The notes beneath the pieces are model-generated. The model was not told the DNA's origin. It saw only the letters and a program-made list of their open reading frames with translations, and ran no database searches. The position numbers and the translations under genes were made by a program. This document shows, in pieces, positions 40,500 through 48,475 of a stretch of DNA of 48,475 nucleotides. The DNA is from Brachyspira sp. G79 (GTDB lineage Bacteria; Spirochaetota; Brachyspiria; Brachyspirales; Brachyspiraceae), in NCBI RefSeq assembly GCF_002379365.1, contig NZ_JQIU01000008.1:934397-982871 (forward strand), written 5' to 3'. How positions within the stretch are numbered: position 1 is the first letter of the stretch; each line of letters opens with the position of its first letter.

Positions 40500-41255
40500 C
40501 TATTTTGTGCTAGGTCCGAATTTTAATCCCACATGAAGTCCTATATCAAAACTAGAATATGATACCTCATCAACAACCAATCTGTTTCCATCAATAGCTC
40601 CGTCTACAGTATATATATTAGGCTCTAAACCAAAATCATATCCTAAATATAATCCTATATTAAATGCTGTTTTCTGAGTAAAAAATATAGAATAATCAAA
40701 AGTAACTTTAATATAAGGCATTAAAGCTTTTTCATATAATCTTTTTATATCATCTGAAGTTAATTTAGTATTGCTTTCAAATAATGAAGTTTTTGTGTTA
40801 ATATTTCCAGCTAAAGGAATCTTTACTCCTCCTCCAATACCTATAGCAAAGTTTTTAATATTAAACTTAGGTATAACACCCAACTGCAAACTTTCAAAAG
40901 AGTATGAATAAGAATTATTTTTATCTAATCTGCTTATATAAGAATAAGTATCATGACTATATCCTGCTTCTGCGAGTATACTTAGCCCCATAGTATCTGT
41001 AAACTTAATCATATATCCAAGCTGCAGAGAAGCTCCTATATCAAAACCAATCCCTCCATTTCTAGCAAATTGACTGCGTATAGATCCACCGTTAATGGCA
41101 TCCATTCTCTCAGCATAATCAGTAAGCTCATAATCGTAAACACCTACACTCATACCAACAGGTACATTTAATATAAACTCAAATCCTTCGCTAACTGCAA
41201 ATGATGCAGATGATGTAAATACAAATATCATAATAGAAAGTATTATCTTTTTCAT
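40500..41255 (-). CDS. Outer-membrane beta-barrel family protein, copy 3
   Basis: 251 residues, a distant paralogue of the two genes at 273-1663. Signal peptide KKIILSIMIFVFTSSASFA. Shared blocks are LAEAGYSHDTYSY (for LLDLGYCHDAYDF), SFESLQLG, GIGGGVKIPL, MPYIKVTFDYSIF, LYLGYDF and SSFDIGLHVG, in the same order and spacing. It is more diverged than the tandem pair are from one another. GGAG precedes the ATG at 41255. It is transcribed alone and closed by the hairpin at 40435-40474. The function is unknown; an adhesin or porin role is inference. Confidence 0.75.
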   Translation of the reverse strand: MKKIILSIMIFVFTSSASFAVSEGFEFILNVPVGMSVGVYDYELTDYAERMDAINGGSIRSQFARNGGIGFDIGASLQLGYMIKFTDTMGLSILAEAGYSHDTYSYISRLDKNNSYSYSFESLQLGVIPKFNIKNFAIGIGGGVKIPLAGNINTKTSLFESNTKLTSDDIKRLYEKALMPYIKVTFDYSIFFTQKTAFNIGLYLGYDFGLEPNIYTVDGAIDGNRLVVDEVSYSSFDIGLHVGLKFGPSTK

Positions 41256-42452: not shown

Positions 42453-43490
42453 TTATAATTGAGGCAAATACCAATTTATGCCTGTTGCTGACCTAAAATT
42501 AACAGGTATAGGATTATTTGATGAGTTTATACCCATTTCAAAATACCATTCCAAATCACTTACAGGATATATTCTCACCTCAGAATAAGCTCCCCAAGTA
42601 AGCGTATGATTAAGCTCTCCGACTTTTTTACCATCATATATTATTTTATAGCCTATACTAGGTTCAAAATATAAACTAACAAAATCAGAATTAGCATACA
42701 ATGACAATGCAGGAGTTATTCTCACAATATAAGGATTAGATTCATATATTTCACTTACCCTATTTGAAGTATACTGTATTCTGTCATGAGACTGTATATT
42801 TACTAAAGTATCAGTATTTTCATTAATGATATCTTTACCCTTTGCATCCAATGATGAAGAATATAACACTTTTATAAAAGGATTAATCCAAACACTATTA
42901 ATAGTAGTAGGAAGAAAATAAAATCTTAACTCAAATCCAAAAGAAGAAGCACTATTACCATTATAACTATTTTTACCATAATTAATATAAAGTCTTACAG
43001 CATTGATAGAATCAAACCCAGTATAATATCTTATTTCAGAAGTCGTACTAAAAGCAGAATAATCGGAATTGTCTTTAGAATCAGCTATTTGAAAAGGCAC
43101 GCATATTCTCAAACTGTCATTCATAGCATTAATCATTAAAACAGGAGTGTGAACATCTAAAGAAGAATCTATATAAGTATAATTATATCCAAGTCCTACA
43201 CTTATAATCTCTGAAGTGTATGCCAAACCCAAAGAAACAGTTGCATCTAATGATAGTTTTCCATTACCAATATAGCTCATTATATTACCAAAAGAGAGAG
43301 TATCTGCCTTAAAGCCGAAAGTACCTTTAACTCCCCTATTACCCAATACAAAACCTAATTGATCTGTCCTAGCTCTAAGATGACTGCTGTCTGTGAGAAA
43401 ATCCATCCAATCATTACTAAAACCATACATACCAAATACCGATGCAGACGATACTGCAAAACAAAAGATTGTTTTTAATAAAGTTTTCAT
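42453..43490 (-). CDS. Brachyspira variable surface protein (Vsp family)
   Basis: 345 residues. Signal peptide KTLLKTIFCFAVSSASVFG, followed by the Vsp hallmark MYGFSNDWMDFLTDSSHLRARTDQLGFVLGNRGVKGTFGF. Later strands LDATVSLGLAYTSEIISVGLGYNYTYIDSS, VHTPVLMINAMNDSLRI and the C-terminal INWYLPQL also fit the family. B. hyodysenteriae Vsp proteins are abundant outer-membrane surface antigens, encoded in paralogous clusters. This copy is alone in the window. AAGGAAA precedes the ATG. The match is from memory of the family; the exact Vsp subtype is not determinable. Confidence 0.85.
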   Translation of the reverse strand: MKTLLKTIFCFAVSSASVFGMYGFSNDWMDFLTDSSHLRARTDQLGFVLGNRGVKGTFGFKADTLSFGNIMSYIGNGKLSLDATVSLGLAYTSEIISVGLGYNYTYIDSSLDVHTPVLMINAMNDSLRICVPFQIADSKDNSDYSAFSTTSEIRYYTGFDSINAVRLYINYGKNSYNGNSASSFGFELRFYFLPTTINSVWINPFIKVLYSSSLDAKGKDIINENTDTLVNIQSHDRIQYTSNRVSEIYESNPYIVRITPALSLYANSDFVSLYFEPSIGYKIIYDGKKVGELNHTLTWGAYSEVRIYPVSDLEWYFEMGINSSNNPIPVNFRSATGINWYLPQL

Positions 43491-43781: not shown

Positions 43782-46436
43782 TTATAAAGAAGATAAAACT
43801 TCCTCTATACCTTTTAATTTATCCTCAAACTCTTTTTTCTTTCTGTTCTCTGTGTCAATAGCTTCCTGTTTAGCTTTATTAATGAAATTTTCATTGGAAA
43901 GTTTTTTGTTTACTGCTTCCAAATCTTTTTTATATTTAGATGCCTCTTTTTCTAATCTTTTTTTCTCAGCTTCTAAATCTATTATTCCTACAAGATTAAC
44001 ATTTACCTCACCGCCTTCAAATACTTTAACAAATGAACCTTTATTTCTTTGAGTATCTTTTGATGAAACTATATTTAATGATTCAGCAAGCGAAAGTGAT
44101 GATATAATATCTTTATAGCTTTCTGTAGTATTTTTAAAATAGTCTGAAGTATATCTTATTATAACATCAAGTTTTTTATTAGGAGGCAAATTAAATGATG
44201 AACGTGAGTTTCTTATTCCAGATACTATATCCTGAATTAAGTTAAAATCTTTTTCTATATCTTCAAATATATATTTACTATTAGCTTTAGGGTATTCTCT
44301 AATCATCAATGCTTTTGAATCAATATTATGCTTTGGTAAATTAGAATAAATCTCTTCTGTGATAAAAGGCATAAATGGGTGAATCATAGCCATTGACTCT
44401 TCAAGCACATACAATAATACAGCAATAGTTTTTTCTTTTTTACTTTCGTCTTTTAAATCAAACTTACTTATCTCTATATACCAATCGCAAAACTCATTCC
44501 AATAGAATTTATAAATAGTCTGAGAAGCCTCATCAAATCTATACTCTTTTAATTTTTTAGCAGTATCATCAACAGCTTTCTGAAGTCTTGATAATATCCA
44601 TTTATCTTTATTTTCAAGTTCAAAACTGTCTAAATCTTTTATATCAGCATTATCTTCAATATTACCAAAAATATATTTAGCACTGTTGTATATTTTATTA
44701 GCAAACTTTCCGCCCATTTTGAAAAGCTCTCTGTCAAGCCAAATATCCTGACCGCCTAATGAAGTTATAAATGATAAAGTAAATCTAAAAGCATCAGCTC
44801 CATGCTCATCAATAATTTCTATAGGGTCAATACCATTTCCCAAACTCTTAGACATTTTTCTTCCGATTTTATCTCTTATAAGTCCATTAAGATAAACATC
44901 TTTAAAAGGTACATCATTCATAAAATGAGTTCCAGCCATAATCATTCTAGCAACCCAGAAAAATAATATATCATAACCAGTAACAAGTGCCGTAGTAGGA
45001 TAAAAATATTTTAATTCTTCATTAATCTCAGGCCAGCCGAAAGTAGAAAAAGGCCATAGCCAAGAAGAAAACCAAGTATCAAGCACATCTTCATCTTGAT
45101 GAATATTTTTACTTTTACATTTACTACATTCTGCGATATCAGTTTTTGACACCATCATCTCTCCGCAGTCATCACAGTACCATACTGGAATCCTATGTCC
45201 CCACCATAATTGTCTGCTTATACACCAATCTCTAATATCAGTCATCCAGTGATTATAAGTATTAATCCATCTTTCTGGATATATTTTTGTATTGCCGTCA
45301 TTAACTGCCTTGTATGCTTTTTCTGCCAAAGGCTTCATTTTTACAAACCATTGATCACTGTAATAAGGCTCTACAACATTATGACATCTGTAGCAGTGTC
45401 CTACTTGGTGCTTAATATTATCCTTTCCGACAAATGCTCCCAACTCTTCAAGCTCTTTTATAATCATACTTCTAGCTTCTTTTACTGTTTTACCTTGATA
45501 ATTAGAAGGAGTATTTTCATTGAATGTGCCGTCTGGATTTAATATATTGATAATCTCTAAATTATGTCTTTGAGCTATAGCAAAGTCATTAGGGTCATGT
45601 GCTGGTGTGATTTTTAAAGCTCCAGTACCAAAATCTTTATCAACATAAGTATCTTTTACAAGTCTTAATTTTCTGCCTCCTATAGGAAGTATCAAAACAT
45701 TCTCCTCTGTAAGATGTGCATATCTTTCATCATCTGGGTGAACAGCAATAGCAACGTCTGCCAAAATAGTTTCTGGTCTTGTAGTAGCTATTTCAATATA
45801 ATCATTAGTGCCATCTATTTGGTATTTAACATGATACAAAGCTCCTGCCGTCTCTTCATGTTCTACCTCATCATTAGCCAAAGCAGTGCCGCAGCTAGGA
45901 CAATAGTTAATAAGATATTTTCCCCTATATATTAATCCCTGATTATAAAGCTCAACAAATACTTCTCTTACAGCATTGCTTAAGCCTTCATCAAGAGTAA
46001 ATCTTTCTCTCTCCCAATCGCAAGAGCAGCCTATTTTTTCTAATTGTTTTACTATTATAGAGTGATGTTCATTAGCCACTTCCCAAGTTTTTTTAACAAA
46101 TGCCTCTCTTCCTAAATCATATTTATTTTTACCTTCGGCTTTTAATCTTCTCTCAACAACATTCTGTGTAGCAATACCTGCATGGTCAGTACCCGGCATC
46201 CATAAAGTGCATTTGCCTAGCATTCTATGAAATCTTATAAGTATATCCTGAAGTGTATTATTAAGTCCATGTCCCATATGAAGTACGCCTGTAACATTTG
46301 GAGGAGGTATGACTATAGAATATGGTTCTTTATTTTTATCCATAACTGCATGAAAAAATCCGTTTTCCTTCCAGAAATTATATAATTTGTCTTCAATATT
46401 TTTAGGAGTGTATGCTCCTTCTAAAGTGTGTTTCAT
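43782..46436 (-). CDS. valS: Valyl-tRNA synthetase
   Basis: 884 residues, class I synthetase charging tRNA-Val. The HIGH signature is PPPNVTGVLHMGHGLN, the KMSKS loop is GRKMSKSLGNGIDP, and the editing domain includes TTRPETILADVAIAVHPDD. The zinc-like cysteine pairs YCPSCGTAL and CDDCGEMM..CSKCKS are present. The C-terminal coiled-coil arm (EAEKKRLEKEASKYKKDLEAV) is the valine-specific one. Length is complete. GGAGGAAAA precedes the ATG. I see no T-box leader in the 370-base upstream spacer. It is transcribed alone. Confidence 0.98.
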   Translation of the reverse strand: MKHTLEGAYTPKNIEDKLYNFWKENGFFHAVMDKNKEPYSIVIPPPNVTGVLHMGHGLNNTLQDILIRFHRMLGKCTLWMPGTDHAGIATQNVVERRLKAEGKNKYDLGREAFVKKTWEVANEHHSIIVKQLEKIGCSCDWERERFTLDEGLSNAVREVFVELYNQGLIYRGKYLINYCPSCGTALANDEVEHEETAGALYHVKYQIDGTNDYIEIATTRPETILADVAIAVHPDDERYAHLTEENVLILPIGGRKLRLVKDTYVDKDFGTGALKITPAHDPNDFAIAQRHNLEIINILNPDGTFNENTPSNYQGKTVKEARSMIIKELEELGAFVGKDNIKHQVGHCYRCHNVVEPYYSDQWFVKMKPLAEKAYKAVNDGNTKIYPERWINTYNHWMTDIRDWCISRQLWWGHRIPVWYCDDCGEMMVSKTDIAECSKCKSKNIHQDEDVLDTWFSSWLWPFSTFGWPEINEELKYFYPTTALVTGYDILFFWVARMIMAGTHFMNDVPFKDVYLNGLIRDKIGRKMSKSLGNGIDPIEIIDEHGADAFRFTLSFITSLGGQDIWLDRELFKMGGKFANKIYNSAKYIFGNIEDNADIKDLDSFELENKDKWILSRLQKAVDDTAKKLKEYRFDEASQTIYKFYWNEFCDWYIEISKFDLKDESKKEKTIAVLLYVLEESMAMIHPFMPFITEEIYSNLPKHNIDSKALMIREYPKANSKYIFEDIEKDFNLIQDIVSGIRNSRSSFNLPPNKKLDVIIRYTSDYFKNTTESYKDIISSLSLAESLNIVSSKDTQRNKGSFVKVFEGGEVNVNLVGIIDLEAEKKRLEKEASKYKKDLEAVNKKLSNENFINKAKQEAIDTENRKKKEFEDKLKGIEEVLSSL

Positions 46437-46808: not shown

Positions 46809-48475
46809 ATGATTGATGAAGAAGCGATATATAACTATGATGTCTTTATAAGCTCTAGAAATACAGATTTAGACAGTAAATGGGCTAATTGGCTGATTAG
46901 AGAATTTGAGACTTGGAGCGTGCCTAAAGAATTAATAAAAAAAGGTTTTCCAAAAAGAATAGGGAGGGTATTTAAAGACAGCGAAGAATCTTCAGAAAAT
47001 ATCAATATAAATACAGAAAAAGCATTAATACATTCAAAATATTTAGTAGTAATATGTTCAAAGAATAGCAAACAATCTGAAAGAATAGAAAAAGAAATAA
47101 AGATATTTAAAGAATTAGGACGTTCTGAAAGAATAGTTGCTCTATTAATAGACGGAGAGCCTTATGAAGCTTTTCCTAATGAATTAACATTTATAGAAGA
47201 AAACGGTATAATAAAAAAAATAGAACCGCTTGCTGCTGATGTAAGAAATAAAACTGATCAAAAAGAAAAAGAAACTAAAAAAATAGCATTATTAAAAATA
47301 TTATCATGTATATTGGCATGCAATTTTGATGATTTAAGACAAAGAGAAAAAAGAAGAGAAAATAGAAAATTTAGGAATAAATTTATAATCTCATTATGTT
47401 TTTTAGCCGCATTATCTTTAGCTGCCATTTTAATATGGGATTATAATAGATTAAAAATCACTTACTATAATAATTTTGTATATCAATACGGACTTCCTAA
47501 AGGCATAGGAAAATTAAAAAAGTCTATGTATTTAAAAAGAGCTGTTACATACATATTTGAAGAGCAAAGGCGTGTTTTAAAACAGGTAAGAAGAGTTAAT
47601 AGTTTTGGAAGATTAAGAGATGATGAAAATAATTTTAATATAAGCGTATGGATTCCAGAAGCCGATGTGTCTGGAAATGTAAAAAGAATAATATGCAAAG
47701 ATCATAACAATAAAATAGTAATGATTAGAGAATATAGCTCTGATTTAAAAATAATAGAGTTTCAAAATGAATTTAATCTTCCATTTGTATCTGACGGAAG
47801 TTCTATAGTAAGGTATGAGGTTGAATATAATAATGAAGGATATATTACCAATGAGGTTTATTACAGAGATTCTTGGAATACATTTGTATCAGATAAAAAC
47901 GGTTTTTACGGAAAAAGATACGAAGTTGATAAAAATGGTATGATAGTAACAGAATACGGCATTAATATGGAAGGAGAAAATATAATAAACAGAAATGGCG
48001 TATTTAAAATAAAATTTCACTATGACAAACTATACAGTATTATAAAAGAAGAGTTTTTGGATAGTGAAAATAATTTGTTTTTTAATACACATAAAGATTA
48101 TGGATATTCATATATAAAAAAAGAATATGATAAATACGGTAATTTAATAAAAAAATCCTTTTTTGACAATAATCATAATAGAATAATACCTTTAAATAAT
48201 TTTTATTCTTCTGTATATTATGAATTAGACAGTTTTGGAAATATATCTTGTGCTAATTATTTGGATACTAAAGATGAATATATACGTTTCTCATACTCAA
48301 AATGTTATTTCAAATATGATGAATTAGGTAATAATATATATACATATTTTCAGAATATGAGTAATCAAAATGCATATCATACAAACGGTTATTCAATATG
48401 TTCTATAAAATATGATAATAATGATAATATAATAGAAAAAATATATTATGATGCCAACACAAATATTTCTTTTAT
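46809..48475 (+). CDS. TIR-domain membrane receptor with YD-like repeats (3' end outside window)
   Basis: 555 codons visible, no stop before the window ends. Residues 1-115 form a TIR domain: YDVFISSRNTDLDSKWANWLIREFETWSVPKEL, GRVFKDSEESSENI, YLVVICSKNSKQSERIEKEIKIFKELGRSERIVALLIDGEP. A juxtamembrane EPLAADVR..KKIALLKILSCILACNFDDLRQREKRR follows, as in a known TIR/SEFIR-type bacterial family. One transmembrane helix spans about 192-210 (FIISLCFLAALSLAAILIW). The rest (>340 residues) lies on the other side and shows repeats of the form YDxxGNxxxxxYxD (YDKYGNLIKKSFFD, YELDSFGNIS, KYDELGNNIY, KYDNNDNIIEK). AGGA precedes the ATG. TIR domains often hydrolyse NAD+; Glu96 could be the catalytic residue, but this is inference. 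Confidence 0.85.
   Translation, partial: MIDEEAIYNYDVFISSRNTDLDSKWANWLIREFETWSVPKELIKKGFPKRIGRVFKDSEESSENININTEKALIHSKYLVVICSKNSKQSERIEKEIKIFKELGRSERIVALLIDGEPYEAFPNELTFIEENGIIKKIEPLAADVRNKTDQKEKETKKIALLKILSCILACNFDDLRQREKRRENRKFRNKFIISLCFLAALSLAAILIWDYNRLKITYYNNFVYQYGLPKGIGKLKKSMYLKRAVTYIFEEQRRVLKQVRRVNSFGRLRDDENNFNISVWIPEADVSGNVKRIICKDHNNKIVMIREYSSDLKIIEFQNEFNLPFVSDGSSIVRYEVEYNNEGYITNEVYYRDSWNTFVSDKNGFYGKRYEVDKNGMIVTEYGINMEGENIINRNGVFKIKFHYDKLYSIIKEEFLDSENNLFFNTHKDYGYSYIKKEYDKYGNLIKKSFFDNNHNRIIPLNNFYSSVYYELDSFGNISCANYLDTKDEYIRFSYSKCYFKYDELGNNIYTYFQNMSNQNAYHTNGYSICSIKYDNNDNIIEKIYYDANTNISF

Follow-up and report, generated by a model that had tools for sequence, protein, structure and literature searches.

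The window, a 48,475-nucleotide stretch (C8:934397-982871) of a 3.29 Mb Brachyspira-like genome (G000), ends within a gene for a divergent, solitary paralog in a family of TIR receptors. With low or no catalytic activity of its own, the product probably serves as a partner to active receptors and tunes them, a reading to which we give about even odds (0.5). Near-invariant TIR residues are lost, the catalytic glutamate position E96 is kept and the gene is under purifying selection, a combination that makes a low-activity or non-catalytic partner the most likely role. The features of the gene are collected in Table 1.

Table 1. Features of the TIR gene with their positions in the window
Feature	Residues	Position	Strand	Remarks
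Whole gene, 5' part (TIR-juxtamembrane-TM-repeat protein)		46809..48475	+	555 of expected ~780 codons or more; runs into assembly gap
TIR domain	9-122	46833..47174	+	Both boxes divergent: box 1 reads FISS in place of FISY, box 2 KDSEE-- in place of RDEEL
E96 codon	96	47094..47096	+	Catalytic glutamate position (W+4 in SxWxxxE); preceding near-invariant Trp is R92 here
Juxtamembrane segment	123-191	47175..47381	+	EPLAADVR ... LLKILSCILACNFDDLRQREKRR; common to family
Single membrane helix	192-210	47382..47438	+	Cytosolic N side by positive-inside rule
Membrane-proximal outer segment	211-334	47439..47810	+	Low model confidence; conserved WDYxRxKxxYY...YGxPKG motif
YD-type repeat ladder	335-555	47811..48473	+	Seven beta-hairpins, period ~32 residues; extends beyond window

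Gene setting and domain architecture

The reading frame opens with an ATG at 46809 and stays open for 555 codons to the window end, where it is truncated because a 385-bp N run inside the gene (G000:C8:982872-983256) begins 2 bp farther on. Beyond the gap the reading of the TIR gene resumes, with a one-base difference from Brachyspira innocens ATCC 29796 (G008 in the genus set) at an A-run; the shifted frame stops at L004:4856. With this frameshift, which may be either real or a sequencing error beside the gap, the gene may be decaying in the window genome. The B. innocens ortholog (L025:5758-8103) is intact, with 781 aa and 93% identity to the window protein. An earlier sequence-only reading of this stretch had proposed extending the contig to the full gene and looking for effector genes downstream. 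The full gene was found to extend as described; no effector gene lay immediately downstream, where a GAF protein, a subtilase and a TsaD-like protein are encoded. On the other side, a valyl-tRNA-synthetase-like gene (43782-46436, minus strand; named by eye) is oriented divergently from the TIR gene. Two further minus-strand ORFs of the window (40500-41255 and 42453-43490) have signal-peptide-like starts and look, by eye, like outer-membrane proteins.

An AF2 model of the window protein, built from nine sequences (mean pLDDT 74.7), contained a TIR fold over residues 9-170. VIA-align ranked the human SARM1 TIR first (Z 12.8 with an rmsd of 2.1 A over 117 residues); SPARTA TIRs also matched, at Z 12.6. 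The ThsB_TIR profile scored 25.5 bits, exceeding its cut-off of 21.2, and Pfam TIR_2 scored 26.9 bits on the window protein (gathering cut-off 28) and 28.1 bits when the genome was searched with neighbours included in the frame.

The membrane helix had a KD value of 2.62, compared with 1.31 or less for all 19-residue stretches starting at residues 1-170 or 231-555. In the model one long helix (173-214) ran through the juxtamembrane segment and across the membrane, and residues ~223-331 were weakly modelled. The motif of the membrane-proximal outer segment was also found in YD-type relatives from other phyla. Nine K/R residues occurred in the 15 residues preceding the helix versus two after it, a bias that places the TIR inside the cell; 91 of 92 relatives were likewise biased towards N-in. 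In L139, L142, L145 and L157, from other spirochaetes, related repeats are preceded (by eye) by a signal peptide or a lipobox-like sequence, and their occurrence in secreted proteins or lipoproteins supports a far-side placement of the YD ladder. The PDZ domain at the C-terminus of the TIR-YD relative in L059 independently favours the same placement. A topology with the TIR inside and the repeats outside is thus strongly indicated.

The repeat region was modelled as repeated beta-hairpins with YDxxGN turns, as in YD/RHS-type repeats. The seven hairpins spanned residues 335-547, and the ladder was confident over ~380-555 (blocks of pLDDT 72-95). Their mean pairwise BLOSUM62 score was 14.7, versus -13.7 +/- 2.4 for shuffled sequences (5000 shuffles, maximum -3.2). 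In Foldseek the ladder matched RHS cores at 4.9e-10 and teneurins at 1.5e-7 with low global TM-scores of about 0.05-0.20, so the likeness is one of the hairpin ladder rather than of a proven closed shell (cocoon). Pfam RHS_repeat and NCBIfam YD_repeat gave no match in the window protein, and the part after the gap scored 13.3 bits (cut-off 15.8). When plasmids and phages were searched with the repeats of a relative, all matches were weak (23-26% identity); one carried a colicin/pyocin-type toxin annotation. The sequence-only reading had named a TIR domain, a juxtamembrane segment typical of a bacterial TIR family, one membrane helix in a receptor-like layout and YD-like repeats on the far side; each agrees with the fold matches, the motif common to the compared relatives, the charge bias and the predicted hairpin ladder.

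Related repeats were seen in other spirochaete proteins. A signal-peptide protein of ~550 aa with YD-type repeats (L145:1480-3144 and L147:1102-2805, from small-genome spirochaetes that are probably Borrelia) adjoins an alanine-racemase-like gene, at a similar chromosome position in many genomes. By eye, L152:895-3507 has a caspase-like domain followed by YD-type repeats, and L141:1477-2733 has a zinc-ribbon, a membrane helix and YD-type repeats, i.e., another cytosolic domain on a similar outer module.

Family membership and distribution

On sequence features (juxtamembrane motif, one TM near residue ~180-220, N-in bias) the window protein is a member of a widespread TIR-juxtamembrane-TM family. 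A profile search of the genome collection with the TIR part recovered 485 relatives among candidate stretches, of which 80 were kept, mostly from Lachnospiraceae. Most of the kept relatives had one TM near residue 180-220 and ~800 residues beyond it. Pfam revealed a clear beta-propeller in the outer regions of eight of nine relatives and weak matches in the ninth (L050). YD ladders were found in only Brachyspira, L058, L059 and L062 among the sampled family. Within the genus the TIR gene was present in 4 of 26 genomes, a patchy distribution.

Bacterial TIR-TM proteins with a beta-propeller (WD40), which belong to Pfam TIR_2 and occur in Lachnospiraceae and other groups, share with the window protein the TIR, the juxtamembrane segment, the TM position, a long outer repeat domain and the N-in charge bias; they differ in having canonical TIR boxes and an outer beta-propeller instead of a YD ladder. 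The TIR-TM-YD proteins of a Gammaproteobacteria MAG (L058), Bacterium MnTg02 (L059) and a Chitinispirillaceae MAG (L062) have the layout of the window protein, including YD repeats and a WDYxRxK...WGxPxG motif after the TM. Their identity to the window protein is 31-32%, and they differ in their regular repeats, canonical TIR and, in L059 and L062, a C-terminal PDZ domain and a PDZ-like tail (by eye), respectively.

Divergence and selection in the window copy

The window copy is solitary and lies outside the operon described below, the channel partner being with paralogs elsewhere in the genome. Residues 421-550 matched the second TIR gene of G022 at 60%, versus 42-45% for other paralogs, and both genes adjoin a GAF and subtilase pair. 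N-terminal trees placed the window copy without firm resolution.

Residue conservation was counted over 93 proteins of the family. Y16 was invariant, H18, R56 and W92 were each present in 91-92 of the 93, and the catalytic glutamate position, with which E96 of the window protein aligns, was kept in 93 of 93. All four of the other residues and a two-residue stretch of box 2 are missing from the window protein as well as from the B. innocens ortholog, and both keep E96. The changes in the window TIR include Y16S, R56K, W92R and a two-residue deletion in the box-2 loop. Between the window genome and B. innocens (one genome pair), dN/dS was 0.13 over the 555 codons; the TIR part alone gave 0.16, and the GAF gene next to it a similar value of 0.17. 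The TIR gene evolves under purifying selection. Being divergent yet maintained by selection, the TIR is most simply read as having a tuning or weakened role, and the window copy is more likely to be a paralog with a regulatory or weakened function than an NADase of the standard kind. The NAD+-cleaving TIR proposed in the sequence-only reading agrees with the retained glutamate; with the FISY Tyr, RDEEL Arg and SxW Trp lost and the box-2 loop shortened, cleavage by this copy is doubtful.

An active membrane-sensing NADase, with repeats that sense an envelope ligand or phage and a window TIR that cleaves NAD+ alone, would be consistent with the TIR fold, E96, the receptor layout and purifying selection. 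We regard it as unlikely, given that Y16, R56, W92 and the box-2 loop are changed here although invariant or nearly so in the 93 relatives. The gene could instead be a TIR gene of the operon that a rearrangement has left stranded and that is turning into a pseudogene, as its solitary position, its divergent boxes and the length of the intact ortholog (781 aa, shorter than the 957-1030 aa of paralogs) would suggest, together with the frameshift after the gap, a frameshifted paralog in B. innocens and a relic operon in G002. Such decay is improbable in view of a dN/dS like that of the GAF gene and the intact ortholog in B. innocens. A purely scaffolding TIR, as in TLR or MyD88 signalling, with an enzymatic role nowhere in the family, would accord with the good alignment of the MyD88 and TLR2 TIRs to the model (Z 10.8-12.4), but the invariant glutamate position of the relatives makes it very unlikely.

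Operon paralogs and the RCK channel

Close paralogs in Brachyspira sit in an operon with the gene order unknown ORF, RCK/TrkA-N ion channel, sigma-like factor and TIR-YD. Paralogs in G022, G015, G008 and G000 lie downstream of a channel of ~830 aa and a 214-aa sigma-like protein, in which sigma-70 region 2 scored 29.0 bits (cut-off 24). The first ORF (~200 aa, of unassigned family) precedes the channel in G022, G015 and G008, and an N run is found there in G000. The operon of G002 is a relic (L054:8906-10643), with the channel collapsed to two ends, the sigma-like gene kept and the TIR gene gone. The channel ORF of G015 (L028:4677-7175) is interrupted by a stop, and in B. innocens the second operon TIR gene (L025:13499-16585) is split into several frames. 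A 2120-aa paralog ORF (L005:2704-9066), considered as a TIR-methyl-accepting chemotaxis fusion, was rejected as an artefact because it contains a 3975-bp N gap.

Among 392 Spirochaetota genomes, the channel was present in eight (the G002 relic included), the TIR in six and both in five. Related channels, in other phyla too, adjoin TIR-TM genes or lie at most 10 kb from them, as in G315, L058, L061 and L062; in G315, from a different spirochaete family, the two genes are directly adjacent. In Brachyspira the channel and the TIR gene are strongly linked, and the association recurs elsewhere. A channel of this kind was absent from the 10 kb around most sampled TIR-TM relatives (Lachnospiraceae), so it does not accompany the family in general.

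The closest solved folds to the channel model (weak, pLDDT 50) were GsuK and CASTOR, both RCK channels that differ from it in the pore and N-terminal domain. Neither GsuK nor CASTOR is known to be encoded alongside a TIR receptor. GsuK opens in response to NAD+ and ADP (PMC3510474), and by this resemblance TIR chemistry might gate the Brachyspira channel. A SLOG domain suspected by eye at the channel N-terminus was supported by neither Pfam nor the model (pLDDT ~25-50 there).

In the proposed mechanism, the YD ladder on the far side would bind or monitor a periplasmic or envelope component. Probably through clustering, the signal would then reach the cytosolic TIR by way of the single helix and the juxtamembrane helix. 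In the operon paralogs, which have a canonical TIR beside the channel, ligand-induced clustering would lead to NAD+ cleavage, and the resulting change in an NAD-derived ligand would gate the channel and evoke a membrane response. These active receptors would be tuned by the window copy, a partner of low or absent catalytic activity. The most specific form of the proposal is speculative and rather unlikely to hold in full: the NAD-derived product of an envelope-sensing TIR receptor gates the co-encoded channel, and the window gene encodes a co-receptor with weakened catalysis, which sets the threshold.

The proposed logic resembles that of Thoeris, in which an NAD+-derived signal made by the TIR protein ThsB feeds a separate effector, ThsA (PMC10022894); Thoeris differs in its soluble ThsB and in having a SIR2-SLOG enzyme as effector. 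PADLOC assigned the window gene to no defence family, Thoeris included, and no defence genes were seen around it, leaving the defence role raised in the sequence-only reading without direct support. In TIR and SLATT 2TM neighbourhoods, a TIR adjoins a predicted ADPr-regulated membrane effector (PMC9503650), an arrangement like that described here except that the Brachyspira partner is an RCK/TrkA-N channel. None of the papers found in a literature search described a TIR receptor combined with a YD ladder and a channel. The survey of Burroughs et al. 2015 is likely the nearest earlier one.

If the mechanism is correct, these proteins would be bacterial counterparts of Toll-like receptors in layout (outer repeats, one helix, inner TIR). 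They would connect the NAD+ chemistry of TIR domains with membrane conductance and have a testable output in an RCK channel whose nearest solved relative opens with NAD+ and ADP, and the window copy would show that a divergent TIR can be retained as a regulator.

Outside Brachyspira, RyR passed Pfam in the channels of L058 and L062, and not in the Brachyspira channels. The cluster of the L062 TIR-YD gene also contains a RelA/SpoT-SLOG(LSDAT)-RyR fusion (L062:5279-7978).
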